Assembly: GCA_016928395.1 (NCBI GenBank)
Contig: JAFGKV010000145.1
Coordinates: 1-18,623, forward strand
Origin: Candidatus Fermentibacterota bacterium
GTDB taxonomy: Bacteria > JAFGKV01
Reading direction: 5' to 3'
DNA: 18,623 bases
Shown: one piece after another, positions 1-15,099 of the stretch
Layout: each line of letters opens with the position of its first letter
How positions within the stretch are numbered: the first letter of the stretch is position 1
Position numbers and translations under genes: made by a program
The notes under the pieces: model-generated
Seen by the model: the letters and a program-made list of their open reading frames with translations, nothing else
Database searches by the model: none
Told to the model about the DNA's origin: nothing

Positions 1-1
1 A

Positions 2-1153
2 GTTCGCGGTCAGGCGGTGGCAACTTTCGGCGTCGCAGACGGAATCCGGGGGGAGGCGGCGTCTTCCTCCGGCCGAGGCGTCTATGGCGTGAACACCGCA
101 ACGACGGGGCTGGCGTATGGCATCTATGGCCTAAGCAGCTCCACAGGAGGTGGTTCGGGCGTTGTCGGCAAGGCGCCCCAGTATGGGGTGATCGGCGAGG
201 CAGCGAGCACACTGGACTACAGTCTCGGTGTGTGGGGATTCGCATCGAATTCCGCCGGAAGAACATTCGGCGTGTGTGGAAGAAGCGCGTCGACCGAAGG
301 AACAGGCGTCTGGGGCTGGGCGACCGCCTCGACCGGGAGTACCTGTGGTGTCAGGGGCGAGAGCGCATCCACGGACGGCACAGGTGTCTCCGGTGTGGCC
401 TTTGCCACCGATGGCCAGACCTACGGGGGCTGGTTTCGGAGCGCATCACCGTCCGGAAGAGGCGTGTATGGCGAGGCACAGGATGGGTTCGGTATCTACG
501 GTCTAGGCACCGTAGGTGTAAGTGGCACCACTATCTACGCGGACGGCACGGGTGTTATGGGCGTGGCCGTGGAGACCACTGGCTCGTCTATTGGCGTGTT
601 CGGGCAAACTAGCTCCCCCTCCGGTTACGGCGTCTACTCCTCGGGCAACTTCGCCGCGTCGGGCACGAAGAGCTGTGTCGTGAAGACATCGAAGGGGCCG
701 GCGATGCTCTACTGCCAGGAGAGCCCCGAGAACTGGTTCGAGGACTTCGGGGAGGGGCAGCTTATGAACGGCCGCTGCCATGTCGAGCTCGATCCCCTGT
801 TCTTGGAGACGGCGACTATCAATGGTGCCAACCCCATGAAGGTGTTCATCACGCCGGATGATCCGATGTGCGAGGGAGTCGCGGTGGTGCGTAGCACAAC
901 GGGGTTCGATGTCATCGAGCTGCATGGCGGTGAAGGCAGTTCCAGCTTTGCATACCGCGTCGTTGCCAAGCGAAAAGGGTACGAATCAAGGCGCCTCGAC
1001 TACTGCCAGGCGGCAGAGAAAGACTCCTACTTGTTCCCCAAGCTACGGGATCAGGAAGCAGGAAAGGCGTTAGGCGTGAGGGGGCAGGCGGGTGGCCCTG
1101 CTTTCCAGGACACTGGCGGCGAACCCTCTTCGCCACTGGGAGGTGTACAATGA
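2..1153 (+). CDS. GVxG-repeat surface/secreted protein, N terminus cut off by window edge
   Basis: The frame is open at the left edge (it reads VRGQAVATFGV before a GTG at 17), and the repeat pattern is already running there, so the gene starts outside the window. About 220 residues consist of degenerate repeats of roughly 17 residues, often paired into units of about 34, with the pattern GVxGxAxSxxGxGVYG and alternating S/T-rich turns. This looks like a stacked beta-strand or beta-helix fibre. A non-repetitive C-terminal domain follows (from about KSCVVKTSKG), with the motifs ESPENWFEDFG, VFITPDD, GFDVIEL and FAYRVVAKRKG. I recognise this cap as recurring at the ends of such repeat proteins in environmental bacteria, but no function is known to me. 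The stop overlaps the next start as ATGA, so the two genes are probably translationally coupled. A phage tail fibre is an alternative, but no phage genes are nearby. Confidence 0.8.
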   Translation, partial: VRGQAVATFGVADGIRGEAASSSGRGVYGVNTATTGLAYGIYGLSSSTGGGSGVVGKAPQYGVIGEAASTLDYSLGVWGFASNSAGRTFGVCGRSASTEGTGVWGWATASTGSTCGVRGESASTDGTGVSGVAFATDGQTYGGWFRSASPSGRGVYGEAQDGFGIYGLGTVGVSGTTIYADGTGVMGVAVETTGSSIGVFGQTSSPSGYGVYSSGNFAASGTKSCVVKTSKGPAMLYCQESPENWFEDFGEGQLMNGRCHVELDPLFLETATINGANPMKVFITPDDPMCEGVAVVRSTTGFDVIELHGGEGSSSFAYRVVAKRKGYESRRLDYCQAAEKDSYLFPKLRDQEAGKALGVRGQAGGPAFQDTGGEPSSPLGGVQ

Positions 1154-1713
1154 GGGGCGTGCGTGCAGCGTTGACGGTGGCGCTGCTCTGCGGGGCAGCC
1201 ACGGCCCAGACCTACGTCCTGAAGGAGTCGACCTTCGGGTCTGCGGGAGGCGCGATGTCGGGGACGACCTATGCCGTAACCGGGACCTTGGGGCAGCCGT
1301 CGCCGGTGGGCAGCTCCGCGGGCAGCAGCTACCAGACCTACCATGGGTTCTGGCACGCGGCGGGCTGGGCGCCGTTGGACGCCATGGTACTTGCCATCAC
1401 GCTAGTGAGTTCGACTACGGCCCGGCTGAGCTGGGATCCGGTGGCGTTGGCAACGGCGTATGACCTGTACCGGAGCACCAGCGCCTACTTCACGGCGAGT
1501 GGTTCACCGTGGCAGACCGTGAGCGCGCCAACGGTCCAGTACGACTTCACCGACGGGATCGGGAACTTCGCACTGACTCATTACTTCAAGGGCAAGGCAC
1601 GGAACGCGGCGCAGACCTCGCCGGAATCCAACACCGTGGGTGAGTTCGAGCGCAGCAGCACGAGTTCGGCCGCGAAGCCGGGAGGATTCTCGTTGAGTGC
1701 AGGAGAACGCTGA
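1150..1713 (+). CDS. Small secreted protein with FN3-like C-terminal domain
   Basis: This 187-residue protein begins with a clear signal peptide: basic MRGVR, a hydrophobic core, and a likely cleavage after the small residues of GAATA, before QTY. The next segment has the pattern GGAMSGTTYAVTGTLGQP followed by GFWHAAGW. I have seen this type of leader domain in secreted proteins of FCB-like bacteria, and its role is unknown. Residues of about 75-170 look like a fibronectin-III-type beta sandwich (ARLSWDPVALATAYDLYRS, then YDFTDG and HYFKGKARN). Its ATG overlaps the upstream stop by 4 nt, so it is probably co-translated with the GVxG-repeat protein and may be exported with it. No anchor or sorting signal is visible. 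The gene ends shortly before the hairpin at 1731-1766. Confidence 0.8.
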   Translation: MRGVRAALTVALLCGAATAQTYVLKESTFGSAGGAMSGTTYAVTGTLGQPSPVGSSAGSSYQTYHGFWHAAGWAPLDAMVLAITLVSSTTARLSWDPVALATAYDLYRSTSAYFTASGSPWQTVSAPTVQYDFTDGIGNFALTHYFKGKARNAAQTSPESNTVGEFERSSTSSAAKPGGFSLSAGER

Positions 1714-1730
1714 AGGGATCTGACAAGATC

Positions 1731-1766
1731 ATATAGGACAAGTCCAACATAGGACGAGTCCTATAT
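1731..1766. terminator. Inverted/direct repeat, possible bidirectional terminator
   Basis: ATATAGGAC (1731-1739) is the exact reverse complement of GTCCTATAT (1758-1766), giving 9-bp arms around an 18-bp loop. The same stretch also reads as two direct copies of a 15-bp unit (1731-1745 and 1747-1761, 13 of 15 identical), each containing AGGAC(A/G)AGTCC. It starts 17 bp after a plus-strand stop and lies between convergent genes, which suits a terminator. There is no following T-run, so it could instead be a protein site or a repeat element. Confidence 0.45.
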
Positions 1767-1785
1767 GGCCAGCGACCCCACTCCT

Positions 1786-1809
1786 TCGCGCCTAACGTCG
1801 CGCCTACCG
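1786..1809. repeat. 12-bp tandem duplication
   Basis: TCGCGCCTAACG (1786-1797) is followed directly by TCGCGCCTACCG (1798-1809), 11 of 12 identical. It is noncoding and of unknown role. Confidence 0.6.
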
Positions 1810-1885
1810 CCCGAGGCGTCCTCCCTCACTATCCCATCGCTCCTGTACTCTCACCCACGTTCCGTACTCGGCGGAAGCCCTATCC

Positions 1886-1906
1886 CGCGTTCCGGGTTCC
1901 GAGTTC
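1886..1906. repeat. Heptamer tandem repeat (CGNGTTC x3)
   Basis: Three heptamers lie in exact phase: CGCGTTC, CGGGTTC, CGAGTTC. Only the third base varies. The run lies just outside the 3' end of the kinase gene. Confidence 0.65.
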
Positions 1907-1927
1907 GCAGGCGCGGGTCCGCCTCCC

Positions 1928-4900
1928 TCAGCTCCATCTCGGCTCGGCCAGCAGTCTCCTGGCAAACTGCTCCAGCGTCTGAGACGCAGCCAGTCCCCTG
2001 ACACCCTCAACAGTTTCGACCGCCAGGGTCTTTTCAAGCTTCGCGATGGCCTGCTCCATCGACTCACGGTCTTCCTGGTGAAATGGTTGGTCCAGCCCCA
2101 CCAGAAACGCCTCCAGCGCTCCCGCCATGTCTCCGAACCGATCCTTGAGCCGAGCAACCGCGCGTATGATCTCCACGATCTGCGGAACAGCTTTGGTCTC
2201 GTTGGCAAGGGCCAGCGCGTTTCGGTAGCATTGCTCAGCCTCACGGGACTCATCGAGTTCCATACAGTGATCGGCCCTGAACATGAGCGCCATCGTCTGA
2301 CCATGCCGGTCACCGATGGCCTCTGCCTCATCGTGGGCCTCTTCAAGAATGGCTTTCGCGCAGTCAGGCAGCCCGCGGGCGGCGAGAGACACCCCCAGAT
2401 GCGCCAACGTGTTGGCAAGCCCGCGGCGGTCTCCCAATGCCCGTTTGATAGCGACACTCTCCTCGTATCTTCGCACGGCCCCCTCGTCGTTGCCACGCCG
2501 ATGGGCCACGATACCCAGCGTGGCCAGCGCACGGGATTCACTCAAGCGGTCTCCGACCGCCCGCGCAAGCACCAGCGCCTCATCTGCCAGTCGTCGGGTC
2601 TCGGAGAGGTCCCCACGCTGCAGTGCCATACCTGTGAGGTTCTGCAGGACCGTTGCCTTCCCCGGCTTATGATCGATCTGGGTGAAGATGGCGAGGGCTC
2701 GCTCGTAGTGCGTGACTGCTTCGTCGATGCGCCCGAAGCCATCGGCGATGACGCCGAGATTGGCGTGGCATGCACCTTGACCCTGGAGATTGCCGATATC
2801 CTCCCAGGTGACCAATGCGTGTGCGATCAGATCCTTGGCATCATCCGTATCGCCCAAGGCGATGGAGGCGATGCCGGCGGTATTGGCCGCGGAGGCCGCG
2901 TCGATCCGCAGATCGAGTGCTTCGGCCATCGCCCTCGCTTCCTGTGCCGAATCGCGTGCCTCCTGATAACGGGCAAGCCGATAGATCAGTGCACTCCAGC
3001 ATGTCAGCGCCACGGCGAGCGCCTTGAGGCCCCACTCATCTGTCTTCCACGCCTTCCGAAGCGCCTCAACAGTTCCACCGAACGCCATCTCCCCCTCGCG
3101 AAACCTCGAACGGTGCTCGAAGAACCGGTGCATGCCTCGGAGATAGAAGAGCAGGAGTTCGCTCCGGGAAGCGGACAACGCATGTTCCCAGCCCCCACGG
3201 ATGTTGGCCATCTCTCGTTCTATCTCGTCGAAGACCGACGCTTCACTGGCGGCTGCCAGCCCATGCTCGTGCTTCTGCACGAATGCCCCGTAGAACTCTG
3301 CGTGCAACTCCTCAGTCTCCGACCGTTCCCCCGGTAAGCGCGTCAGCTCCTCACGGGCGTACTGGTGCAGCAGCTCATGGACGGAGTATCGGTTGGATCG
3401 GTTCCGCGCTATCAGCGACTTGTCGACGAGACGTGAAATGGTCACCAGAGAGGCCCCGACCACTGCCCGCGCAGCCTCCAGGGTGAATCCTCCGCGGAAG
3501 ACCGATAGGCGTCGATAGATGCTCTGTTCCGAGTGCCGCAGGAGATTCCAGGAATGGTCGAACACCGCGCGCATGCTCCGGTGGCGAGGCGGTGCCCCGG
3601 GAAGCCGGGCGGCAAGCTGATCGATGTCTTCGGAGAGGCGCCCGGCGATGGCTTCGCAGGGAACGTCATCGACGGATGCAGCCGCTAACTCGATGCCCAG
3701 GGGATTGCCGCCGACAAGCTGGCAGATGGTCGCGATGGATTCCCAGTCTGTTGGCTTAGGGATGAACCCCGCCGAGGCACGTCGCGCAACATGATGGAAT
3801 AGCATGAGCGCGGGATGGTTCGCCGGATCGGGAGCATCGGTCGGGGCGGGGACGCCCAACCCGGCGATCTCCACCACGGTCTCCATCGGCAGACCTGTGC
3901 GTTCACGGCTGGTGACCAGGAACACCAGGCCAGAGCCTGCCGCCAGGAGCTCGTCGAGCAGGCCACGGCCGTCCAGGAGGTGCTCCATGTTGTCGAATAC
4001 CAGGAGCATGCGTTTACCCTTGAGGAACGCAAGAAGTTGCTCCTTGGGGTCCACCGTCCCGCGGAACGTCGCGCCGACAGCCGACGCAACTGCGGGAATC
4101 AGAAACGCGGAGGAGGGCACGGGGGCAAGAGGTACGAGATGTGCGCCGTCCTGGAAGAGACCGCGCGCCTCTTCGGCGGCCTCAATGGCGAGACGGGTCT
4201 TGCCGATTCCTCCGGGTCCCACCAGAGAGATGAGCCGATGTGCGCCGTCAGTCAGAAGGTGGAGCAGGTGTTCCTGCTCGCGTTCCCGACCGATGAACGG
4301 CGTCATCCACCCTCCCTGATTGACGCCTTCGGCAGACTGACCGGGGGAATTGATCCTGACAAGGATCTCCTCCAGGAGCTTGCTCACCATGCCGGCATCG
4401 CGCACCCGCTTCGAACGATCCCGATCGAGCATCCATGCGAGCAGCGAGACCAGCGAATCGGGCGCCTCAGGCTGGAATTCGCTGATCAGGGGAGCAGGCC
4501 GCTCTACCAGCCCAGGCAGATCTTCCTCCGTGGCCGGAGTACCGAAAGGGAGCGTGCCCGCCAGCATCTCGAAGACCATCAGGCCCAGTGACCACAGGTC
4601 GGACTCAGGGCCGAGGGATTCCCCCCGGAACCCCTCGGGACTCAAGTAGGCCAGTGTTCCGATCAGCCGTTCAGTCTGTTCTGAAGGGCTCACAGACGAC
4701 AGCGCCGCGATGCCGAAATCCGACAGGCGGGGGGTTCCATCGGCAGCCATGAGCACGTTTGCCGGCTTCACATCGCGATGTATGACGCCATGCTGGTGGG
4801 CGTGGTGCAGAGCGGAGGCCAGGTCAATGGACACCTCGATAGTCCATTGAAGCGAGAAGCGATGCTCTCGCGTCAGGAGATCGCGAAGGGATCCGCCGCC

Positions 4901-5167
4901 GATGAAATCCGTCACTAAGAACGGGATGCCGTGGTGGATTCCCGAGGCGCGCAACTGCACCACACACGGATGCGAAAGCGTTCCCAGCAAGGCCGCCTCA
5001 CGCATGAGGGTCTCCTGGAGGCTCTGATCAGCGCCTTCCAGGAGCTTGATGGCAACCGGCTCGCCGTTCAATGTGTCGATTCCGCGATACACTCGGCCGG
5101 AGGCGCCGTGTCCGATGGGGTCGCCGATTGCGAAACGTCTGGCCAGCAGGCCGCTTACCTCATCCAT
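1928..5167 (-). CDS. Ser/Thr protein kinase fused to STAND-type NTPase and TPR repeats
   Basis: This 1079-residue protein joins three parts. Residues about 11-270 are a Hanks-type kinase: glycine loop GHGASG (19-24), Lys41 in VAIKLL, catalytic HRDVKPAN (130-137), DFG (150-152) and SPE (176-178). All key residues are present, so it is probably active. Residues about 290-500 form a STAND/AP-ATPase-like module: FIGRERE, Walker A GPGGIGKT (317-324), Walker B LLVFDN (388-393), LVTSRE, and GGNPLGIELAAA. A winged-helix-like stretch follows (LSVFRGGFTLEAARAV). From about 610 to the end are many TPR-like helical pairs, usually ligand or partner binding. No membrane helix or DNA-binding domain is obvious, so it is probably cytosolic. 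The ATG at 5167 sits 10 residues before the kinase fold but has only a weak ribosome site. It is the last gene of a minus-strand run, 35 bp after the small membrane protein. Such architectures are known in signalling and conflict proteins; the target here is unknown. Confidence 0.93.
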   Translation of the reverse strand: MDEVSGLLARRFAIGDPIGHGASGRVYRGIDTLNGEPVAIKLLEGADQSLQETLMREAALLGTLSHPCVVQLRASGIHHGIPFLVTDFIGGGSLRDLLTREHRFSLQWTIEVSIDLASALHHAHQHGVIHRDVKPANVLMAADGTPRLSDFGIAALSSVSPSEQTERLIGTLAYLSPEGFRGESLGPESDLWSLGLMVFEMLAGTLPFGTPATEEDLPGLVERPAPLISEFQPEAPDSLVSLLAWMLDRDRSKRVRDAGMVSKLLEEILVRINSPGQSAEGVNQGGWMTPFIGREREQEHLLHLLTDGAHRLISLVGPGGIGKTRLAIEAAEEARGLFQDGAHLVPLAPVPSSAFLIPAVASAVGATFRGTVDPKEQLLAFLKGKRMLLVFDNMEHLLDGRGLLDELLAAGSGLVFLVTSRERTGLPMETVVEIAGLGVPAPTDAPDPANHPALMLFHHVARRASAGFIPKPTDWESIATICQLVGGNPLGIELAAASVDDVPCEAIAGRLSEDIDQLAARLPGAPPRHRSMRAVFDHSWNLLRHSEQSIYRRLSVFRGGFTLEAARAVVGASLVTISRLVDKSLIARNRSNRYSVHELLHQYAREELTRLPGERSETEELHAEFYGAFVQKHEHGLAAASEASVFDEIEREMANIRGGWEHALSASRSELLLFYLRGMHRFFEHRSRFREGEMAFGGTVEALRKAWKTDEWGLKALAVALTCWSALIYRLARYQEARDSAQEARAMAEALDLRIDAASAANTAGIASIALGDTDDAKDLIAHALVTWEDIGNLQGQGACHANLGVIADGFGRIDEAVTHYERALAIFTQIDHKPGKATVLQNLTGMALQRGDLSETRRLADEALVLARAVGDRLSESRALATLGIVAHRRGNDEGAVRRYEESVAIKRALGDRRGLANTLAHLGVSLAARGLPDCAKAILEEAHDEAEAIGDRHGQTMALMFRADHCMELDESREAEQCYRNALALANETKAVPQIVEIIRAVARLKDRFGDMAGALEAFLVGLDQPFHQEDRESMEQAIAKLEKTLAVETVEGVRGLAASQTLEQFARRLLAEPRWS

Positions 5168-5202
5168 GCGGTATGCTCGTGTTACTCACCCAGCCTCATT
5201 CG

Positions 5203-5589
5203 CTAGTTCACCCAATAGCCATGCCCGAAGAGGGCGGCTCCTGAAAGAAACCACCAGGCCAGCGCCCCCACCACGCTCCAGAATCTGGTCAGGGGACGTT
5301 CGGAGAAGAAGGCGTTCCTCACCAGCCACAGGAGTAGGCCCGACCCAACGATGTATCCAAGGACTCCGAAATACGCGACCAACGGGCTCTTGAGATCCCG
5401 CAAGCCACCGATAGGGCCGGTCCATAGCGTCAAGTACGTTGTGGTGCCAATGCCATAATCCACAACCGGCTCATGGGGGAAGACGAAAACCGCCAGGTAG
5501 ACCGAGGCGACCAGGTAGCCAAGGACAACCCCAAGGAACCCATACAGAGGAACTCGTGGAATGCGATACGGATCGATGGGTTCACTCAT
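5203..5589 (-). CDS. Small multi-pass membrane protein
   Basis: From the chosen start this is a 128-residue hydrophobic protein with likely membrane segments at about 16-37, 69-90 and 102-121, plus a weaker hydrophobic stretch at 43-60. The N terminus (MSEPIDPYRIPRVP) is short and polar. The frame could start 9 codons earlier at 5616, but the ATG at 5589 has a good AAAGGAG site 8 nt upstream. It overlaps the stop of the transglutaminase-like gene by 8 nt, so translation is probably coupled. I do not recognise a family. Its position between that gene and the kinase-STAND gene suggests a membrane anchor, sensor or pore for the same pathway, which is inference only. Confidence 0.82.
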   Translation of the reverse strand: MSEPIDPYRIPRVPLYGFLGVVLGYLVASVYLAVFVFPHEPVVDYGIGTTTYLTLWTGPIGGLRDLKSPLVAYFGVLGYIVGSGLLLWLVRNAFFSERPLTRFWSVVGALAWWFLSGAALFGHGYWVN

Positions 5590-7177
5590 GCTGTGCGCTC
5601 CTTTCCTGACCGCCAAGCCTACGCCTGGCAGACGATCGGATCCTGGATGCAGATCCGTGTTCAGTACTCACCAGATCCCGTGTCCACAGGAAGTCACGCT
5701 CAAAGGCGCGAAGCAGCCGGGTGCGATCCGCATCCAGACGGGCCAGCTCCTGGTCAATGCCTCGGCTCGGCGACAGCAGGATCGCATAGAGGAGGTGTTC
5801 TTCTTCCACGAAGCCAGCGCCGCAGTCCCCGGCGATGGCGCGGGCATCATCGATACAGCGACGGTAGTTCAAGGTCGCCCGTGGTGGGTCATCCTGGCTC
5901 ACGTGAACCGCCACATCGGCACGCCAATCGTCATCCCGGCTCGCGACACCTTCCGCCGAGAGGAACGACCTGACACGCTGCCCAGAGCGTGCACGGAGGG
6001 CTTCTAGCAGGTGCCGGGATTCCAGGGTCCCACGGCTGACTCTTCGCGCCACGGTCTGGGAAAGGCCGAGGATCGACAACGCCCCCGGGCTCAAGGGGAA
6101 TTCCAGCGGCACCACGGTATGACGCGCAGCGGCCACATCCAGGGCAAACTCCAGCGAGCAGTCATCCAATCGCCTCTGTGCGGCGTCCACGGCTTCCCGG
6201 AAGGGAAGCGAGTGGCCGGAGTAGAGAGTGACACCGGTTGCCTCCAGCGGTAGCAGCCTGCCGCTGCGTACGGCCTCCCTGATCCGTTCCTGAGATTCAA
6301 TCACCGGCTCGAGGCGTTCGCTGCCGGTCCTCCAACACCCGACCATCGCGTGCTGATCGGCGTGCTCCCCTCGGCAGACAACAATCACCACAGGCTGAAG
6401 ATGCACGCTCTCCAGGCAGGAGGCGAACAGGAGCGATAGGTCGATGCACGTACCCGCGCCAGCACGCGTATGGGGATTCGGGATGACCCTGTGCGGTGGC
6501 CGAATCGCCTGTCCATCGGTTTCGTAACTGGGAGCCTCAAGAACATACTGGAGATTGTAGCGCACCTGGAGCGTCTCGTAGATCTGTCTCACCACGTCTT
6601 CAGCCTCCGATCCATCACCTACGGATTGGACGGGTGATGCTCCTCGGCCTCTTTCGAACACAGTCTGGCCGGCGTCTGCAAGAATCTGCTGGATGATGAA
6701 CTGCCCGGGCTGCACATAGCAGGCAAGAGTCTTGCGCGCCTCTTGCGCCAACGACCACTCATAGAAACCCAGGACGAGAACCTCACTGCGGAAGACCACG
6801 TGGCCATCCACCGCGATAGATAGGGTTGCGTACCGACGCGCTTCGAGCCCCTGGAGGCGATCATAGCATAGTTGCAGCGGAATCGGCGCGAGCCGAGCAA
6901 CGGCGCCGTGCCCGAGGGCGTGTACGGGCAATGTCAACGGCAGTGCGTATCCTGGGATGTCGATGGTCAGAGTGAACGGCTCGACAGACGAGTCGCTGCG
7001 GTTGACAATCTCGATGTGATCGATGATGGGGATATGGCAGTGGTGAAACGCGTAGCTGATCGCGGGTGCACCGACGAACGCGATCTCCAGGTCGCCATGG
7101 CGGAACCTGCGTGTCGAAGGGGGATTGCTCCTAGACACGGAAGCCGCTCCTTGGACGGGGTCGTGATCTTCTGGCAT
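5582..7177 (-). CDS. DUF4011-helicase-type N-terminal module with transglutaminase-like domain, fused to a Clp-N pair
   Basis: This protein has 531 residues in the longest reading. Residues about 25-360 match from memory the N-terminal region of the large DUF4011-type helicases. They comprise a beta domain (HIPIIDHIEIVNRSD, then LACYVQPGQF), a transglutaminase/papain-fold-like core with Cys244 in GTCIDLSLLFASCLE and His276 in HAMVGCW, and the closing motifs LPLEATG and FALDVAAARHTVVPLEFP. The third catalytic residue is not certain. The helicase part is absent. Instead, residues about 365-410 and 433-490 resemble the two repeats of a Clp N-terminal domain (ESRHLLEAL and EEEHLLYAIL), which normally binds substrates or adaptors. 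A basic tail follows. No signal peptide or membrane helix is seen. An alternative GTG start at 7138 has a better ribosome site. It is the first gene of a tight trio with the membrane protein and the kinase-STAND gene. It may be a protease or a peptide-binding regulator; the activity is unproven. Confidence 0.8.
   Translation of the reverse strand: MPEDHDPVQGAASVSRSNPPSTRRFRHGDLEIAFVGAPAISYAFHHCHIPIIDHIEIVNRSDSSVEPFTLTIDIPGYALPLTLPVHALGHGAVARLAPIPLQLCYDRLQGLEARRYATLSIAVDGHVVFRSEVLVLGFYEWSLAQEARKTLACYVQPGQFIIQQILADAGQTVFERGRGASPVQSVGDGSEAEDVVRQIYETLQVRYNLQYVLEAPSYETDGQAIRPPHRVIPNPHTRAGAGTCIDLSLLFASCLESVHLQPVVIVVCRGEHADQHAMVGCWRTGSERLEPVIESQERIREAVRSGRLLPLEATGVTLYSGHSLPFREAVDAAQRRLDDCSLEFALDVAAARHTVVPLEFPLSPGALSILGLSQTVARRVSRGTLESRHLLEALRARSGQRVRSFLSAEGVASRDDDWRADVAVHVSQDDPPRATLNYRRCIDDARAIAGDCGAGFVEEEHLLYAILLSPSRGIDQELARLDADRTRLLRAFERDFLWTRDLVSTEHGSASRIRSSARRRLGGQERSAQHE
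7147..7152 (-). promoter_or_regulatory. Shine-Dalgarno site supporting an alternative GTG start
   Basis: On the minus strand AAGGAG lies 8 nt before a GTG at 7138, in frame with the transglutaminase/Clp-N gene (codon 14 of the longest frame). The ATG at 7177 has no comparable site. The conserved domain begins after both, so homology cannot decide. Confidence 0.5.
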
Positions 7178-7282
7178 CCGGTTCGTGCCTGATGTCGTAG
7201 TATGCGCGCTCCAGGCCCGCGGTCAAGGGCCTGTTCATCTCAGAGAGAAGCTGCCAGACCGCTCGTGTCCGCGCTCGCAAAC

Positions 7283-7302
7283 TCAGAATCAGAAGTCAGG
7301 AG
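7283..7302. repeat. Short 6-7-bp-period repeat (TCAGAAG-like x3)
   Basis: TCAGAA, TCAGAAG and TCAGGAG follow one another directly. This resembles the other heptamer runs in the window. Confidence 0.5.
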
Positions 7303-7411
7303 TCGACCCCCCACAACGCGGCACACGGGCGGGCGAGCGGGCTGCCGGCTTCGCTTCGCTCGCAGGCTCCAGGGTTCAGTGGGGCGGCCTGCCGACTATG
7401 GTTCCGCCCCC

Positions 7412-7446
7412 ATCTCCTCGCTCCTCACTCCTATCTCCTCACTTCT
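7412..7446. repeat. Heptamer tandem repeat (CACTCCT-like x5)
   Basis: Five in-phase heptamers are present: ATCTCCT, CGCTCCT, CACTCCT, ATCTCCT, CACTTCT. They form a pyrimidine-rich tract on the plus strand, purine-rich GGAG on the transcribed RNA. It is noncoding. Confidence 0.7.
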
Positions 7447-7505
7447 CAAAGCGGCTCTGTCGTTGACCCTGCGCCTGGTCGAGGGGCGTGAAGCTCCAGC
7501 GTAGC

Positions 7506-8228
7506 TCAGTGTCGGACTCTGGTGCTTCGGATTTGCCCTCTGGCGGGAGCCTGCAGCAGCAGGGTGTATTCCCCGTCGGGAACGTCCTCAAAGCGGGCTA
7601 GGAGGTATGCTTCGCCGGGAACCGCAGCCAATTGAGCCACGCGGGTGAACTCCGACGAGGTGGCGATGAGCACAACAAAAGGATGTGGCGCCGCACCCTT
7701 GGGGTGGCGCACGGTGACGGCGGATTCGGCGGCATCGGCAACAACACGGAGCATCGGTTCATCGGGGCTCTCTACCATGGCCGGGCCCCTTCTATCCTTG
7801 CCCCGCACGCGGATCGGCGGGGCCACGGGTTCGAATGCGAGGAGCGGGCCGGCCGGAGTCATACGTGGCAGCGCTTCGTCGCGGATCCACGCCAGTCGTG
7901 CCGCAGACTGGAGCCCGATCCGCAGGGCCGCGCTGGTCGACTTCATGAGGTTCCGTGACCAGCGAAGCAGCCTCCGTTCGACCTCGGACGGGATCTCGGC
8001 GTCGAAGGCGTAGCTTCGAAGGCGCTTCCGGAGTTGCGCCAGCGCGGGATCGACCGTATGCCGCGCCGAAAAAACGGCGGCCCGGTGGTCTCGGAGGAGA
8101 CGATAGGCCCTTGCCCGCGCCGCGCACTCCGGACACGCGGCCAGATGCAGGTCGAGTCGAAAGCCATCCTCCTCTGCCGCTTTGCCCGCGACGTACTCGA
8201 GTATCCGCATCAGTGAGGGGTGATCCAT
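7506..8228 (-). CDS. Zinc-finger anti-sigma-like protein without a membrane helix
   Basis: This 240-residue protein has an N-terminal helix pair and the motif HLAACPEC (His28-x3-Cys32-x2-Cys35), the signature of zinc-finger (ZAS/zf-HC2-type) anti-sigma factors. Such proteins hold a partner sigma factor inactive. The usual membrane segment is not seen; residues about 90-125 form an arginine-rich, possibly amphipathic helical linker. The C-terminal part, from about 150, looks like a small beta sandwich (VRHPKGAAPHPFVVLIATSSEF, then YTLLLQAP) and may be the sensor. The start is well supported: TAGGAGT lies a few nt upstream and overlaps the stop of the sigma gene, with only 9 nt between the genes. 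That arrangement supports a sigma/anti-sigma pair, with a cytosolic signal rather than an envelope one inferred. Confidence 0.78.
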   Translation of the reverse strand: MDHPSLMRILEYVAGKAAEEDGFRLDLHLAACPECAARARAYRLLRDHRAAVFSARHTVDPALAQLRKRLRSYAFDAEIPSEVERRLLRWSRNLMKSTSAALRIGLQSAARLAWIRDEALPRMTPAGPLLAFEPVAPPIRVRGKDRRGPAMVESPDEPMLRVVADAAESAVTVRHPKGAAPHPFVVLIATSSEFTRVAQLAAVPGEAYLLARFEDVPDGEYTLLLQAPARGQIRSTRVRH

Positions 8229-8237
8229 CAGAGACTC

Positions 8238-9098
8238 CTATGATCGCGCCGTGTGCCGCTCTTCCATGAGTAACATACCCGTCTCCAGCGCGTTTCTCGC
8301 CCGGCGTCTCACCTTGTGACACCAATCCGAGAGGGAGGCAGAGGGTTTCGGGCCAAAGAAGGTCGAGAGATGCAGATCACCAACGGGGCCGGTCAAAGCT
8401 CGCGCCCGATCGTACTCCTGCTCCGGGTACACGTCCCGAACAGGTGCAACGAGCCTCTGCCAGAACCACGGACAATGGTCGCGGCAGAGCGGTCTCCGGC
8501 CGGCGTCTGTGAACGCGTGGCGGGACATATCATCATACACGCGCCGCGTGAGGGTGAAGAGCGAGCGGGAGCCGAGTTGTTCAGCCACTTCGCGTGGGCG
8601 CCACTCAAGGAATCCGATGAGACAGAACGCCAAGGCCTGATGCGGCTTTGCGCCGCACGCCAGAACGAGAAGGAGAAGCTCCTGTGTCGCCGCCTCGATC
8701 TCCTGCGATGGTTGGGCAGCGATCTCGGGGATCTCAGCCAGAGGCCTGAGCCGCCGCTGATACTGTGGCGTGGGTTGATCGGGGGTGGATGCCGCCGCCA
8801 CGTGAGTTCGGCGTAGATGGTGATCGATCTGGCTGTCTGCCATGACCCGCAAGAGTGTGTAGACAGAAAACTGGGGATCGTAGCGACCATCCCTGAGAAA
8901 CGGGAGAGCGGCCGCAAAGGTCTCCGAGACGATGTCGGCGGCATCCGCCGAATGCACCCTTCCGGCGACATAGCCCCGCAAGGCCTCGAAGAAGTGCTCG
9001 TACAACGTGCCGAACGCACTGTCGTCGCCACCCTGAACCCGCGCCGCGAGCTGGCGCTGTTCCTCGGAGGAAAGGTAGCGGTGGGCCTCTCTGTGCAT
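8238..9098 (-). CDS. Divergent ECF-type RNA polymerase sigma factor
   Basis: From the ATG at 9098 the protein has 286 residues. Residues about 26-98 match sigma-70 region 2: a helix with DDSAFGTLYEHFFEALRGYV, the core motif DIVSETFAAAL (55-65), then FSVYTLLRVMADSQIDHHLRR. The usual region 4 is hard to recognise; its place may be taken by LEWRPREVAEQLGSRSL (164-180), which resembles a helix-turn-helix. About 95 further residues, rich in Arg, Trp and Cys, follow, so the protein is clearly longer than the usual ECF length of about 180-200. The open frame extends to 9326, but the upstream part is Arg/Pro-rich and not sigma-like; the ATG at 9098 has a modest GAGGG site. It is followed after 9 nt by the anti-sigma-like gene. 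Target promoters are unknown. Confidence 0.75.
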   Translation of the reverse strand: MHREAHRYLSSEEQRQLAARVQGGDDSAFGTLYEHFFEALRGYVAGRVHSADAADIVSETFAAALPFLRDGRYDPQFSVYTLLRVMADSQIDHHLRRTHVAAASTPDQPTPQYQRRLRPLAEIPEIAAQPSQEIEAATQELLLLVLACGAKPHQALAFCLIGFLEWRPREVAEQLGSRSLFTLTRRVYDDMSRHAFTDAGRRPLCRDHCPWFWQRLVAPVRDVYPEQEYDRARALTGPVGDLHLSTFFGPKPSASLSDWCHKVRRRARNALETGMLLMEERHTARS

Positions 9099-9594
9099 GG
9101 CACCCTCGTGTAGCCGTCTCTCGTGTCGCACCCCGAAGGACTCCCGCAAAGACCCCATGCGCCGGGGATGCTCCGAGCCGCCGGCCGCCATCGCAGGGAG
9201 CCACGCGCTCGGAACTTGAGCGTCGCGGACGGGGACACTCCGGTTATGCCCTCGCAGAATGCAAGATAGATGCGTATATGCCCGAGGCAAGATTCCCCCC
9301 TGCAGCCACTGTTCGTTCAATCGCATGACGGCGATGGCTCCAGGACACGGGTAGGCCGCCCGTCTGACATCGTTGTTATTCTGCGTCTAAAAGCATGGGT
9401 CGTGCCGCGACGACCGCCCTGCCCCTGAGTCCTCTCTTTCGGCACCCCCTTACACCGCTCCCACGGATGTAATGACTGCAGGCCACCGTCTCGTTATTGT
9501 GCGCGGCAGACACCGCGTTTCGGGAAAGCGCGTCAGATGCTCGTGGTGCCCGACGCCGCCCAGCCGGCGGTCGGACCCGGAAGTGAGGAGCAGG
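9099..9594. other. Divergent intergenic region between the sigma and glycosyltransferase genes
   Basis: This stretch of 496 bp separates the sigma start (minus) from the glycosyltransferase start (plus), so it must carry promoters in both directions unless transcription enters from outside. Both genes have open frames extending into it, but composition and ribosome sites favour the inner starts. I see no RNA gene or strong promoter match. Confidence 0.55.
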
Positions 9595-11400
9595 ATGAGG
9601 GTACCCATAGATGGTGACCATGGATTGGGCACGACCATAGCCCGGCACGCCCTGCGTCCAGCCTATGCCGTTGCCCTTCTTCTGGTGGTGCACTTCGCCG
9701 CCTGTGCCTGGTCAATCGCCCGCCAGTCCCTCACCTATGACGAATCCAACCACTACGCCTACGGCATGAAGATCAGCCGGCTCGACCCCGACCTCGGCCC
9801 CCACGACAGCAAGATGCCATTCTCCGTTGTCAATACGATTCCGTACCACCTGTCAGTGGCGTTGGGCAAGCTTCCCATCCTCCACGGTCTCGCGTCAGGG
9901 CTTGCCTCCTTCGACGCCGCGCGGGTGGTCACCGTGTGTTTTTCCCTGCTCCTGGGCGTGGGCGTGTTTCGCTGGAGCCGGGCTCTGTATGGGGTGCATG
10001 GCGCGCTCCTGTCGCTAGCGCTCGTGGCGTTCGACCCGACCATCCTCGCCCATGGATCGCTGGTCACCACGGACCTGTTTGCATCGCTCATGGTCCTGGT
10101 TGCGCTCTACCGCTACTGGGTGTTCCTCCGGGAACCCACTGTGCCGCATGCGGCCCTGAGCGCTACGACCCTGGGCCTGGCCCAGCTCTCCAAGTACACC
10201 GCAGTCTACCTGTACCCACTGTTCGTGCTGCTCTTCCTCGGGGCAGCCGGCACAAGAACGTGGAGAGACAGGGGCGTTGGAGAACCGGGGAGGCTTCTGC
10301 GCCGCGGCGCGGGCTTCTTCGCCCTCTTCGTCGCGGCAAGCATCGTGATCATCAATGCGGGATTCCTGTTTCACGGCACGGCCACGCCGCTTCGGGACTA
10401 CCGGCTCCGCAGCCATCTTTTCCTCTCGCTGCAGCGCACACCCCTCCTCCGAAGCCTCCCGCTGCCCCTTCCCGTGCCGTTTGTCGAAGGCCTCGACCGG
10501 GTAAAGCACAACGAGACCACGGGCGCCACCTTTCCGGGCATCTACCTCCGGGGCGAGGTGCGCAGAAGCGGCGAGGAAGGCTTCCGGGGGTTCAAGACCT
10601 ACTTCCTGTGGTGCTGGCTCCTGAAGGTGCCGCTGGCGACCCAGCTCCTGGTTTCCATGGCTCTCCTGGGCCTGCTTCGCCCTGACCCGCGGCGAGGATG
10701 GCGGAAAGATGAGGCATTCCTGCTGGTGCCGTCCCTGTTTTTCATGGCCTACTTCTCGCTGTGCTTCAATGCCCAGCTCGGCATCCGCTTCCTCCTGCCC
10801 ATCTTTCCTTTGATGCACATATTCTGCGGAAGGCTGCTCAAGGACTGGCCCGCGGTCTCGCCCAGGCGCCGCGTCGCGTATGGTACGCTGGTGGTCTATC
10901 TCGCTGCATCAGCCGCATCGTATGCGCCGCATTTCATACCCTACTTCAATGAGCTGGTGCCGGATCGTACACGGACATACCGCTTCCTTGCCGACTCCAA
11001 CCTGGACTGGGGCCAGGCCACTCCCTCGATCCGCGACTACCTGAGGAGCCATCCGGGCACCCAGTTTCACCCGCCCCATCCCATGCCCGGTCGCATCCTG
11101 GTGGCCGGCAATGCCTTGGTCGGCCTCACTGATCCGGAGTGGTTCCGGTGGCTCCGGGAGAACTTCGAACCCGTCGGCCATGTGGCCTATGCCGTGTTTG
11201 TGTTCGAGGTGACGGAACACGATCTGAGAGAACTCAAACGGCGGGGTGCACTCTCTCATCCCCTCAAGAATCCCATCGGCCCCGGGGCGGGCCTCCCCGG
11301 CGGTGAGGGGCTCCGCCGGGAGGGTGGGGGTCAGTCCCCTCAGGAGAGGGGAATGGCCCGCTGGATCCAGCCGCCTCCGATGACCGTGTCGGCGTCATAG
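9595..11400 (+). CDS. GT39/PMT-family membrane glycosyltransferase
   Basis: From the ATG at 9595 (GAGGAG 4 nt upstream) this is a 601-residue polytopic membrane protein. The first helix (about 21-40) leads into the acidic pair Asp49-Glu50 in LTYDESNHYAYG, the position of the catalytic DE motif in lipid-phosphate-sugar-using GT39/ArnT-type enzymes. HDSKMPF stands where these proteins often have DHPPL. Many hydrophobic segments follow, then DSNLDWGQ (467-474), a motif I know from this group, in a C-terminal non-membrane part. The likely role is sugar transfer from a polyprenyl-phosphate sugar onto protein, lipid or glycan outside the membrane; the acceptor is unknown. The frame could start at 9472, but that extension is Arg-rich and has no ribosome site. 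The last ~45 residues are low-complexity, run through a hairpin, and overlap mnmA by 61 bp, so the original stop may have been lost. Confidence 0.88.
   Translation: MRVPIDGDHGLGTTIARHALRPAYAVALLLVVHFAACAWSIARQSLTYDESNHYAYGMKISRLDPDLGPHDSKMPFSVVNTIPYHLSVALGKLPILHGLASGLASFDAARVVTVCFSLLLGVGVFRWSRALYGVHGALLSLALVAFDPTILAHGSLVTTDLFASLMVLVALYRYWVFLREPTVPHAALSATTLGLAQLSKYTAVYLYPLFVLLFLGAAGTRTWRDRGVGEPGRLLRRGAGFFALFVAASIVIINAGFLFHGTATPLRDYRLRSHLFLSLQRTPLLRSLPLPLPVPFVEGLDRVKHNETTGATFPGIYLRGEVRRSGEEGFRGFKTYFLWCWLLKVPLATQLLVSMALLGLLRPDPRRGWRKDEAFLLVPSLFFMAYFSLCFNAQLGIRFLLPIFPLMHIFCGRLLKDWPAVSPRRRVAYGTLVVYLAASAASYAPHFIPYFNELVPDRTRTYRFLADSNLDWGQATPSIRDYLRSHPGTQFHPPHPMPGRILVAGNALVGLTDPEWFRWLRENFEPVGHVAYAVFVFEVTEHDLRELKRRGALSHPLKNPIGPGAGLPGGEGLRREGGGQSPQERGMARWIQPPPMTVSAS
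11292..11323. terminator. GC-rich hairpin between convergent genes
   Basis: CCTCCCCGGCGG (11292-11303) pairs with CCGCCGGGAGG (11313-11323), giving an 11-bp stem with one bulged base and a 9-nt loop. It lies just downstream of the mnmA stop and inside the run-on tail of the glycosyltransferase frame. No T-run follows on either strand, so intrinsic termination is likely but not certain. Confidence 0.55.
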
Positions 11401-12416
11401 AGCACCACGGCCTGCCCCGGCGTCACCGCAGGCACCGGAGTCTCGAACCGCAGTACGGCCCCGTCCTCACCCGCGTGGCGAACCTCGGCCCGTACGGGGC
11501 GATGCCCAGAGCGCACCTGGGCCAGGCAGGAGAAGGAGGCACGGCCGGGCCGGACCGCATGCCAGATCATCCCGGAGGCGGTTAGGCCCGCGGCCAGGAG
11601 GTCACCCCGATCCGTGGTCACCGTGATCGCGCCGGTATGCGGGTCGATGCCCTTGACATAGGCGGGTGCACCCAGAGCGATACCGAGGCCGCGGCGTTGG
11701 CCGACGGTGAAGCGGTGAAACCCATCGTGGGTTCCCAACAGCGACCCATTGGCACTCACGACGGCGCCCGGCCGGCCCGGCTCATCGAAGAGAGTGCGTA
11801 GGAACTCCGGTAGCTTCTCTCCCAGGCCGACGACGCAGGCGTCCTGGCTCTCGGCGCGGCCGGCGCAGGGGAGCCTGAGGTCCCTGGCGAGGCTCCGAAC
11901 CTCTGTCTTGGACAGGTCGCCCAGGGGGAAAATGACCCGGGCCAGGTGGTCACCCGTGAGAGCAAACAGAAAGTATGACTGATCCTTGGCGCGATCTCTG
12001 GCGCGCAGAAGAACCGGTGCGGCTTCCGGCTCCCGCACGACTCGGGCGTAGTGGCCGGTGGCGATCCAGTCTGCTCCCACATCGCGCGCCATGTCGAGCA
12101 GCGCGTCGAACTTGACGGCCGGATTGCAGATCACGCAGGGATTCGGGGTCCGGCCGCGGGCGTACTCCTCCCAACTGGGCCGAAGCACGACGTCCCGGAA
12201 CCGGGAGGCACGGTCAAGGATGCGGAGGTGAATCCCGAGCTGGTCGGCCACAACCTGTGAGCCGGCGACAGGATCCTCGACGGTGGATGCGGGCTCAGGC
12301 GGCTTCAGACGCAAGGTGATTCCGATGACCTCATAGCCTTCTTGCTGCAAAAGCGCCGCCGCCACACTGGAGTCTACGCCACCACTCATGGCGACGGCAA
12401 TGCGCTTCGTCTTCAT
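11340..12416 (-). CDS. mnmA: tRNA-specific 2-thiouridylase MnmA
   Basis: From the ATG at 12416 this 358-residue protein matches MnmA along its whole length and is of normal size. MnmA adenylates U34 of Lys, Glu and Gln tRNAs and inserts sulfur at C2 in the cytosol. The PP-loop motif SGGVDSS is at 11-17. The first catalytic cysteine lies in TPNPCVICN (Cys97, corresponding to the E. coli ICN cysteine; Cys94 is nearby). The second, Cys194, is in AESQDACVVG and forms the transient persulfide/disulfide. GHYAR (121-125), KDQSYFL (144-150), FTVGQRRGLG and the C-terminal beta-barrel are also present. The frame extends upstream to a GTG at 12518, but homology begins at MKTKRIAVAMSGG. The ribosome site is weak. 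It lies downstream of a larE remnant on the same strand and converges with the glycosyltransferase. Confidence 0.96.
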   Translation of the reverse strand: MKTKRIAVAMSGGVDSSVAAALLQQEGYEVIGITLRLKPPEPASTVEDPVAGSQVVADQLGIHLRILDRASRFRDVVLRPSWEEYARGRTPNPCVICNPAVKFDALLDMARDVGADWIATGHYARVVREPEAAPVLLRARDRAKDQSYFLFALTGDHLARVIFPLGDLSKTEVRSLARDLRLPCAGRAESQDACVVGLGEKLPEFLRTLFDEPGRPGAVVSANGSLLGTHDGFHRFTVGQRRGLGIALGAPAYVKGIDPHTGAITVTTDRGDLLAAGLTASGMIWHAVRPGRASFSCLAQVRSGHRPVRAEVRHAGEDGAVLRFETPVPAVTPGQAVVLYDADTVIGGGWIQRAIPLS

Positions 12417-12524
12417 GGCGGCCGTGCCACGTCGTGGGTCCTGGCCATGGAGGCGCGGACGGGCGAAGTGTCGCGGCGAATGTGGAAGTTCTCCGCGCAC
12501 AGCCGCGTCGCGCGCCACATGACT

Positions 12525-12546
12525 ACTATTCTCATGTTAGAATAGT
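12525..12546. promoter_or_regulatory. Perfect 8-bp-arm dyad upstream of mnmA, possible operator
   Basis: ACTATTCT (12525-12532) and AGAATAGT (12539-12546) are exact reverse complements separated by CATGTT. This AT-rich 22-bp dyad stands out in GC-rich DNA and lies about 109 bp before the mnmA start, just beyond the larE remnant. It could be a repressor site or a small hairpin overlapping a promoter. No -35/-10 pair is clear. Confidence 0.4.
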
Positions 12547-12576
12547 GCCTTTTCGCTCCGCCACCAGGACCGGCCG

Positions 12577-13132
12577 TCATGACTCCGGTTGTGACCTGGC
12601 CCCGCGGTCGATGGTCTCGCTTTGGGAGCCCATCCGGTAGCCAGCCCTGCAGGTCGAGGGTGACGAAGGAGTGGCCGGCGGCACGACAGGTGCTGCTCAC
12701 AGCTTCGGCTGTCTCGGATTCAGGCAAACGGAAGAAATCGCTCCGCGGAGCTTCGATCCCCGCCACGTCGCCGTGATCCCGCAGGCCCTGTTCGGCCCGA
12801 TCGATGTGGGCCAGACGCCGGGGAGGGATCTCCTGGCCATAGGGAATACGCGAGGCCGGGCAAGCAGCGGCAGGCGCGTCCCAGGTGGGCAGGCCCAATT
12901 CATCGGTCATTGCCTGGATCCAGCGCACGCCCAACAGGGGAACAACCGCTTCGACGGCTATTTCATGACTCGCCTGCAGGCGGGACGTGGCGGTCACGGC
13001 CAGAACGCGCTCTCCCAGGGCGTCGTAAGCCGCGGCCAGGAGAAGCGAGCTGTCGACCCCGCCGGAGAAGGCTACCAAAACGCTGTCCATCCGGGCCAGA
13101 TGCGTGATCAGGCGATCGTAGTCAGTGATCAT
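12577..13132 (-). pseudogene. larE: Decayed larE (sulfur transferase for nickel-pincer cofactor synthesis)
   Basis: The intact family (about 270 residues) is a PP-loop protein that gives sulfur to the pyridinium cofactor of lactate racemase. Here the start (MITDYDRLITHLARMDSVLVAFSGGVDSS) and the core ELGLPTWDAPAAACPASRIPYG, with its conserved cysteine, are plain. Three lesions are visible. About 85 residues are missing at about 12902-12925, where LGVRWIQ jumps to ELGLPTWD, losing the RCYxCK and GTNxDD region. About 8-9 residues are missing near 12775-12781, where EQGLR jumps to DHGDVAGIE, losing the GFxxVRVR part. A 4-bp tandem duplication (AGCCAGCC on the plus strand, 12639-12646) shifts the frame after LDLQG. 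Removing it restores GYRMGS and a stop at 12577, as expected for LarE. The open frame as it stands runs from 13183 to 12413 and overlaps the mnmA start. A diverged functional paralogue is possible but unlikely. No larB or larC is in the window. Confidence 0.8.
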
Positions 13133-13400
13133 GCGGTCCCGTCTCCATTCGCCTCCACACGGAGTGACGCCTGGATCCGACATACTACCGGGTTCGGCTC
13201 CTTGCCCGATGTCCAGGAAGGGGAGGTCTTCGCCAGCTTCGCCCTTCAGGGCCTCCTACGCAAGTGCTGAGCCATCTGCGCAGCGACAGAGTCTCCTCGA
13301 ACTTGACTGTGAATCCCAGGCGGCGCAAGTTGGGAGGTGAAGGCTTTCATAGTGGGACATGTGCCCCGGCGTCATGTCACCTACGGCCAGGAGGGGCACC

Positions 13401-15032
13401 ATGAGCCGGCTCGCTTCGATTCTACTTCCGCTCGCGTTTCTGCTGCAGTCTGCAGAGTCGCAGAAACCCATGAGCGTGATCCACACGCTGTCATCTCTGG
13501 AGCAGCCTGATTATTCCTTCGGTCGGTCGGTCGCGTTCATCGGCGACGTGAGCGGCGACGGTGTCGCCGACATCCTGATCGGGGATTCCGGGTTCAGGGC
13601 ATGCGTCTTCTCAGGCAAGACCGGCGCGTTGCTGCGCACATTAGGATCGCCTTCCGAAGAGGTTGGCGACTTCGGCTTCTCAGTGGCTGGGCTCGCTGAT
13701 GTAACCGGCGACAACGTCTCAGATCTCATTGTCGGCGCCCCGGCAGAGGACTCTGGAGCATCTGCCGCTGATGCGGGCAGATCCTACGTGTTCTGCGGGG
13801 TGACGGGGACTGTTGCACAGACTCTCATCTCTCCACACGAGGAGGAGTCGGGGCGTTTCGGCCACGCGGTGGCAGGGGTTGACGATGTTGACGGCGACGG
13901 CATCGACGACCTGATCGTGGGAGCTCCATACGAGAATCCTGGAACATCGCCACCGGACGCGGGGCGTGTCTACGTCTTCAGCGGGGCGACCGGCATGGTG
14001 ATACGTGAGCTTGTGTCGCCCGGCGAGATCTACGGTCAGGCAGGCGGGCATTTCGGTGCGTCGGTCTGCGGCGCTGGGGATCTGGATGGCGATGGCACTC
14101 CCGACGTCGTGGTTGGGGCACCCGGCGAGCACCCACCTTCGGGCGAGCTCGGGCCAGGTCGAGTGTATGCCTTTAGCGGCGCGATAGGGCTACCCCTGTG
14201 GACAGGAGCCTCCCTCGACCTCGAAGACGGCGGCGGGTTTGGGTTGTCGATTTCGATGGTGGGAGACATCGATGGCAATGGCATTTCCGAGTGCCTGGTG
14301 GGCGCTCCCTTTGAGGACGATGACTGGTTCATCTTCAACTGCGGGCGCGCCTACATCCTGAGCGGCGCTGCCGGGACGGCGGTTCGCATTGTGCAGCCGC
14401 CCTATGGAGAGCGGGACGGGCAGTTTGGTTTCAGCGTCTCGTGCGCAGGGGATATTGATGGGGACGGGTGTTCCGACTACATCGTGGGCGCGCTGCTGGA
14501 GGGACTATCGCCAGAGGGCGAAGACTGGATCGGCCGTGCCCATGTGTTCAGTGGTGCTTCCGGAGAGGCGGTGTGGTCGCTCGACTCCCCCAATCCATGG
14601 TACGGCGGGAGTTTCGGCATTGCCGTGGCAGGAGGCTTCGATGTGACCGGCGACGGGGTGCCTGAAGTCATCGTGGGCGCCCCTGGTGAGAACCCTGCAC
14701 GTGCCTACGTGTACGGTCCCGAGATGGTGCTCAACGGACAGGTCGAGGGGGGAGCGCTGGCTCTCTCGTGGACCCCTGTGGTCGGTGCATTCCAGTATTG
14801 GGTCTATGGGGCGGAAAACGCTGCCTACTGCCTGCCCGGCATGGCTCCGGGCTACGAAGACCGCCTGGTGGTCCTCCCTCCTAGCACTGAGTCGTGGAGT
14901 AGCTCTCACGGAATCGGCGACCCGAACAGCAACTGGGCTTACGTGATACTGGCGGTCAGCTCAACCGAGTCGGAGCTCTGCCGTTCCGGCCGCGCGGGAG
15001 AACACGACTTCGACGTCGGCTATCTTCCATAA
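13401..15032 (+). CDS. Secreted seven-repeat FG-GAP (integrin-alpha-like) beta-propeller protein
   Basis: From the ATG at 13401 (AGGAGG about 8 nt upstream) the 543-residue protein begins with a signal peptide (MSRLASILLPLAFLLQSAESQ). Seven FG-GAP repeats follow, each of about 60-65 residues with the pattern xFGxSVxGxxDVDGDGxxDxIVGAP, for example DVSGDGVADILIG, DVDGDGIDDLIVG and DIDGDGCSDYIVG. The DxDGDG loops are typical calcium sites; repeats 2 and 5 carry Asn substitutions (TGDN, DGNG). Seven repeats are the number needed for a closed seven-bladed propeller. The last ~100 residues (ALSWTPVVGAFQYWVYG) look like an FN3-type domain, in the same style as the secreted protein at 1150-1713. No anchor or sorting motif is visible. 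Such proteins often act in adhesion or at the cell surface, but the ligand is unknown. The frame could start at 13359, but that extension lacks a signal-peptide shape. Confidence 0.92.
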   Translation: MSRLASILLPLAFLLQSAESQKPMSVIHTLSSLEQPDYSFGRSVAFIGDVSGDGVADILIGDSGFRACVFSGKTGALLRTLGSPSEEVGDFGFSVAGLADVTGDNVSDLIVGAPAEDSGASAADAGRSYVFCGVTGTVAQTLISPHEEESGRFGHAVAGVDDVDGDGIDDLIVGAPYENPGTSPPDAGRVYVFSGATGMVIRELVSPGEIYGQAGGHFGASVCGAGDLDGDGTPDVVVGAPGEHPPSGELGPGRVYAFSGAIGLPLWTGASLDLEDGGGFGLSISMVGDIDGNGISECLVGAPFEDDDWFIFNCGRAYILSGAAGTAVRIVQPPYGERDGQFGFSVSCAGDIDGDGCSDYIVGALLEGLSPEGEDWIGRAHVFSGASGEAVWSLDSPNPWYGGSFGIAVAGGFDVTGDGVPEVIVGAPGENPARAYVYGPEMVLNGQVEGGALALSWTPVVGAFQYWVYGAENAAYCLPGMAPGYEDRLVVLPPSTESWSSSHGIGDPNSNWAYVILAVSSTESELCRSGRAGEHDFDVGYLP

Positions 15033-15052
15033 CATCTCCGCATCGCGAAATG

Positions 15053-15083
15053 CACGGGGGCGGGCCCGGAGGCCCGCCCCGTG
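15053..15083. terminator. Convergent GC-rich terminator hairpin
   Basis: CACGGGGGCGGGCC (15053-15066) pairs with GGCCCGCCCCGTG (15071-15083), a 13-bp stem with one bulged G and a CGGA loop. It lies between the stops of the FG-GAP gene (plus) and the macroglobulin gene (minus), which are 67 bp apart, so it can serve both. The T-run is weak on both sides. Confidence 0.7.
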
Positions 15084-15099
15084 AGGCACCAATCGGATT

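Follow-up and report, generated by a model that had tools for sequence, protein, structure and literature searches.

What, if anything, joins five genes that lie side by side on the minus strand of an 18,623-nucleotide contig (JAFGKV010000145.1, positions 1 to 18,623; hereafter the window) from a Candidatus Fermentibacterota bacterium? They encode a sigma factor, an anti-sigma factor, a 531-aa transglutaminase-like/Clp_N protein, a small membrane protein and a kinase-STAND-TPR protein (Table 1), and the initial annotation, made from the sequence alone, proposed them as one module at 1928-9098. The genes and their junctions are as described there: 9 nt between the sigma and anti-sigma genes, a 328-nt gap at 7178-7505, an 8-nt overlap with the upstream gene created by the start of the membrane protein gene (ATG at 5589), and 35 nt before the kinase gene. 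The arrangement exceeds chance: a second species preserves both the gene order and the tight junctions, and a paralogous cluster repeats three of the genes. Our preferred reading, to which we give a probability of about 0.42, is that the locus would form a cytoplasmic signalling module in which the kinase-STAND sensor directs the 531-aa protein against the zinc anti-sigma factor, freeing the sigma factor.

The second species is Candidatus Eisenbacteria isolate Prado127, the nearest named relative of the host (genome about 4.8 megabases) and placed in the same genus. All five genes occur there too, in unchanged order and with protein identities of 60-67%, in a locus joined from two contigs with an exact common 30-base end inside the sigma gene. 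In the window, G+C content at third codon positions is 0.69-0.73 in all five genes. The paralogous cluster, in the host's own genome (G000:C260, hereafter C260), consists of contiguous genes for a sigma factor, an anti-sigma factor and a 609-aa homologue of the 531-aa protein, with a 2-nt gap followed by a 4-nt overlap of the anti-sigma and transglutaminase genes. Identities to the window proteins are about 33%, 25% and 38%, respectively, and the 609-aa protein has an extra N-terminal FHA (phosphothreonine-binding) domain (1.2e-11). The last of the four full-length homologues, counting the window's own, comes from another phylum (G389); it is a 609-aa FHA-transglutaminase-ClpN protein, 35% identical to that of the window, and its gene is closely followed by a DUF1598 gene (L114:4801-7964) and then by one for a Ser/Thr kinase-TPR protein. 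A related transglutaminase-like domain in G322 is fused directly to NB-ARC-TPR in one protein.

Two sub-links recur across these neighbourhoods and fusions, one between the sigma/anti-sigma pair and the protease-like protein and the other between the protease-like protein and Ser/Thr-phosphorylation or STAND-TPR signalling. The initial annotation had raised the recurrence of the partner genes beside the 531-aa protein, and our neighbour table bears this out in part: recurrence holds for the sigma pair and for phosphorylation/TPR signalling, though the two do not always come together. The small membrane protein stands beside the 531-aa type in Prado127 and, among 98 genomes searched, occurs only in the two closest, while the kinase-STAND gene is present in Prado127 and neither it nor a membrane gene adjoins the C260 locus.

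The centre of the proposed module is the 531-aa protein. Its N-terminus matches NCBIfam NF058533, the anti-phage helicase ProA (9.1e-47, 159 bits), and the N-terminal region of such giant helicases has been described as a transglutaminase-like peptidase (PMC3710099). C244, H276 and E312 occur in that order and are conserved in aligned relatives across phyla, the acidic residue being Glu or Asp and in nearly all cases Glu, which points to a transglutaminase-like thiol-peptidase. The protein itself was rejected as a ProA, since its 159 bits cover 312 of the 1903 model positions, all N-terminal, and membership is defined by a full-length score of at least 1500 with the helicase-nuclease. At the C-terminus a double Clp repeat motif marks the Clp_N domain, which passes the profile cut-off in both Eisenbacteria homologues (8.8e-6 and 2.5e-6) and is closest to ClpC N-domains in a profile search of PDB (1.3e-5). 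In a broad sample of 386 genomes the transglutaminase-ClpN form was found in Eisenbacteria loci alone. The thiol-peptidase profile gave about 40 further, weaker matches in two other phyla, mostly in proteins of other layouts. In G095 (L053:7307-8695) a stand-alone 462-aa transglutaminase-like protein of the ProA-N type (4e-64; GYF_2 matched weakly) is encoded among unclassified genes, and in several large genomes the domain heads proteins of some 2000 aa, including a protein of G030 that matches ProA over its full length. A Rhizobium match (L009) shares its reading frame with an unrelated gene and was taken as spurious; no relative was found in the viral contigs searched.

The weaker domain assignments (Clp_N, sigma region 2 and the zinc domain of the anti-sigma factor) are backed by homologues and profiles. 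Sigma70_r2 is matched at 0.0037 in a single-sequence domain scan of the sigma factor, and with a profile of region 2 a solved ECF sigma factor is reached at 1.5e-12, which supports an ECF-like assignment. There was no PDB match outside region 2, and global hhalign to ECF sigma factors suggests a plausible register for region 4. The C-terminal extension is restricted to this phylum among 376 genomes. For the anti-sigma factor, zf-HC2 is matched at 4e-4 and the profile aligns to ChrR (2q1z) at 0.0022; the zinc-ligand positions H3, H28, C32 and C35 (His...Hx3Cx2C, the ZAS motif) are invariant in three homologues, and no transmembrane segment was found in the protein. Adjacency and co-conservation suggest that it pairs with the neighbouring sigma factor.

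The 1079-aa protein matches Pkinase (6e-48) and TPR_12 (1e-22, above the curated cut-off), as well as NB-ARC (2e-4) and AAA_16 (2e-6), both under their curated cut-offs. Its nearest solved kinase is PknB. The motifs read in it are K41, HRD, DFG, the P-loop GPGGIGKT (317-324), LLVFDN and GNPL, and the combination of P-loop, Walker B, GxP-type motif and TPR superstructure argues for a STAND NTPase. The Prado127 homologue is 63% identical and retains the active-site motifs.

Table 1. Coordinates of the genes and candidate transcription signals in the window
Feature	Position	Strand	Remarks
Sigma-70 family (ECF-like) sigma factor, 286 aa	8238..9098	-	Region 2 clear, region 4 degenerate; C-terminal extension of ~95 residues
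Soluble ZAS-type zinc anti-sigma factor, 240 aa	7506..8228	-	Unclassified C-terminal region
531-aa protein	5582..7177	-	N-terminal region, predicted transglutaminase-like thiol-peptidase domain, double Clp_N (~364-502)
128-aa membrane protein	5203..5589	-	Three hydrophobic segments (predicted transmembrane); no known family
Ser/Thr kinase-STAND (NB-ARC/AfsR-like) NTPase-TPR protein, 1079 aa	1928..5167	-	Pfam assignment
Sigma70-like promoter candidate, TTGACC-16-CATACT	7199..7226	-	Just upstream of 531-aa gene; consensus scan, near chance rate alone
Non-coding leader of sigma gene	9235..9342	-	81% over 95 bp in Prado127; holds TTGCCY-16-TATCTT

How these parts might operate together can be outlined as follows. 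At rest, the zinc-binding anti-sigma factor would keep the ECF-like sigma factor bound. A stress or invader signal may be detected by the TPR/STAND part of the kinase, which would oligomerise with ATP and switch the kinase on, with the small membrane protein perhaps acting as an anchor or co-sensor. Phosphorylation would then direct the transglutaminase-like/Clp_N protein onto the anti-sigma factor, the Clp_N domain (plus FHA in the paralogue) docking the target, and the Cys-His-Glu site would cleave the anti-sigma factor and release the sigma factor. Who phosphorylates whom, the thiol cleavage, the anti-sigma factor as its substrate and the trigger are what we infer beyond the observed gene order, domains, conserved residues and sub-links. 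Destruction of the anti-sigma factor by a protease, which the initial annotation gave as an example, is a plausible step. Each kind of step exists elsewhere, as CalpL cleaves the anti-sigma factor CalpT (PMC12751052), cleavage of Csx30 by Csx29 relieves CASP-sigma (PMC10028731), and PknB phosphorylates RseA for ClpC1P2 (PMC10027907). We put forward more tentatively a fuller version, which would amount to a class of sigma-factor switch not described before. In it a STAND-kinase would activate a dedicated thiol-peptidase that has a ClpC-type docking domain of its own and would destroy the zinc anti-sigma factor, and FHA paralogues would read the phosphorylation in trans, so that an NLR-like sensor would be wired to transcription by regulated proteolysis and without CRISPR.

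Several observations weigh against the preferred reading. The complete five-gene set was found in just two related species, and the conserved order is partly inherited, because the flanking genes are also shared by these two (alpha-2-macroglobulin gene 83% identical, MnmA gene 71%). The G389 homologue has no adjoining sigma pair, so an anti-sigma factor cannot be the sole substrate of this protein family. The match of the thiol-peptidase domain in a profile search of PDB is marginal (0.44), and an AlphaFold2 model of the 531-aa protein, built from a two-sequence alignment, had a predicted local distance difference test score (pLDDT) of 36 and was not used, so that the fold assignment rests on sequence. 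Finally, the 328-nt gap with its promoter-like site permits two transcription units.

That gap and site, aligned in both species, together with the lone G389 homologue, speak for two unrelated neighbours, namely a sigma/anti-sigma pair of the ZAS type with its own redox or zinc sensing and an independent unit of transglutaminase, membrane and kinase genes. We think this rather unlikely, as the anti-sigma and transglutaminase genes overlap in C260 and the three-gene set has been maintained there despite its divergence. A similarly low likelihood attaches to the 531-aa protein being an adaptor. Its Clp_N domain and docking region would then deliver the (phosphorylated) inhibitor of the sigma factor to ClpCP, or titrate the partners of ClpC, and the thiol site would be structural or minor. 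The resemblance of Clp_N to ClpC N-domains fits such a role, and PknB-RseA-ClpC1P2 is a direct precedent, but an unused site would hardly persist as a Cys, His and acidic residue conserved across phyla.

The kinase might instead phosphorylate the sigma or anti-sigma factor directly and leave the transglutaminase-like protein to work downstream as an effector, or as a modifier that, for example, cross-links or deamidates. Although linked Ser/Thr kinases have been proposed to control six ECF groups (PMC8999054), this seems improbable here: the sigma factor retains a DAED-like motif (DAAD/DAED/DAID) and an anti-sigma gene is present, unlike in phospho-activated ECF43, which is defined by loss of the motif and lack of an anti-sigma gene and was rejected as an assignment for the same reasons. 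Still less probable is a role in anti-phage defence or another kind of conflict, with transcription as the output. The thiol-peptidase domain is shared with anti-phage ProA, STAND and kinase domains are frequent in defence, and transglutaminase-helicase giants have been described in conflict systems (PMC3710099); however, the flanking MnmA, PP-loop and alpha-2-macroglobulin genes are kept in the second species, indicating a stable chromosomal site with no signs of a mobile element or defence island, PADLOC gives generic kinase matches only, and the viral contigs hold no relatives.

Set against known systems, the parts are familiar and the combination appears undescribed. The corresponding system of Mycobacterium tuberculosis relies on a PASTA kinase and a general ATP-dependent protease encoded elsewhere. 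Its PknB-RseA/SigE-ClpC1P2 pathway likewise joins a Ser/Thr kinase, an anti-sigma factor and Clp-dependent removal (PMC10027907), whereas the window has a linked, dedicated thiol-peptidase (predicted). Type III-E Cas7-11/Csx29-Csx30-CASP-sigma is also alike in that a TPR-linked cysteine protease governs an ECF-type sigma factor through an inhibitor (PMC10028731), but the protease is a CHAT (caspase-like) enzyme activated by target RNA, the inhibitor is a different one and there is no kinase. CalpL-CalpT-CalpS (type III CRISPR Lon-SAVED protease, anti-sigma and sigma) differs in its CRISPR-linked Lon protease, activated by cyclic tetra-adenylate (cA4), and has no kinase, STAND, Clp_N or thiol-peptidase of the window protein's family. 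No cas-like gene is present among those window genes that were scanned or read, and the search for cas genes did not extend to the remaining genome. ProA and MTES_1575-type giant helicases share the homologous N-terminal transglutaminase-like region, while the window protein lacks helicase, DUF4011 and Vsr-type nuclease and carries Clp_N in their place. ChrR-type ZAS anti-sigma factors have the same zinc motif, solubility and adjoining ECF-like sigma gene; the C-terminus of the window anti-sigma factor is unmatched to the C-terminal part of ChrR, and protease-like and kinase genes are linked to it. In line with the initial annotation, which did not know the combination as a described system, we found no description of the five-gene set in the literature searched, which left out most subscription journals. 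The locus would belong among protease-controlled anti-sigma switches. If so, a single compact locus, from a phylum in which few experiments have been made, would couple three signalling modes (Ser/Thr kinase, STAND sensing and regulated proteolysis) to a sigma factor, and it would suggest a function for the thiol-peptidase domain that heads the anti-phage helicase ProA.

The two subgroups of genes may belong to one circuit and yet be transcribed separately, because a promoter-like site precedes the 531-aa gene in both species (TTGACC-16-CATCTT at the aligned position of Prado127); all promoter readings here are consensus matches only. The element in the sigma gene leader occurs once per genome and, not being repeated elsewhere, reveals no regulon, and an Rfam scan gave no match. 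A 76-aa N-terminal extension of the sigma factor (upstream open reading frame, 9099-9326) was rejected as coding, being conserved as DNA and not as protein: substitutions in its 31 conserved first codons are spread evenly over the codon positions (7/8/10), versus 31/15/57% in the sigma gene.

Among the surrounding genes, the PP-loop (LarE-like) gene at 12413-13183 is missing a long internal segment, RCYHCKK included, which the Prado127 copy (L057:3988-4845) has, and it is probably a pseudogene or rearranged copy. The well-conserved bacterial alpha-2-macroglobulin gene (bMG10, A2M) lies at 15100-18576, upstream of the module in the window as in Prado127. GVYG/GVxG-repeat proteins are encoded both near the window module (1-1153) and near the C260 paralogue (L006:840-3146).

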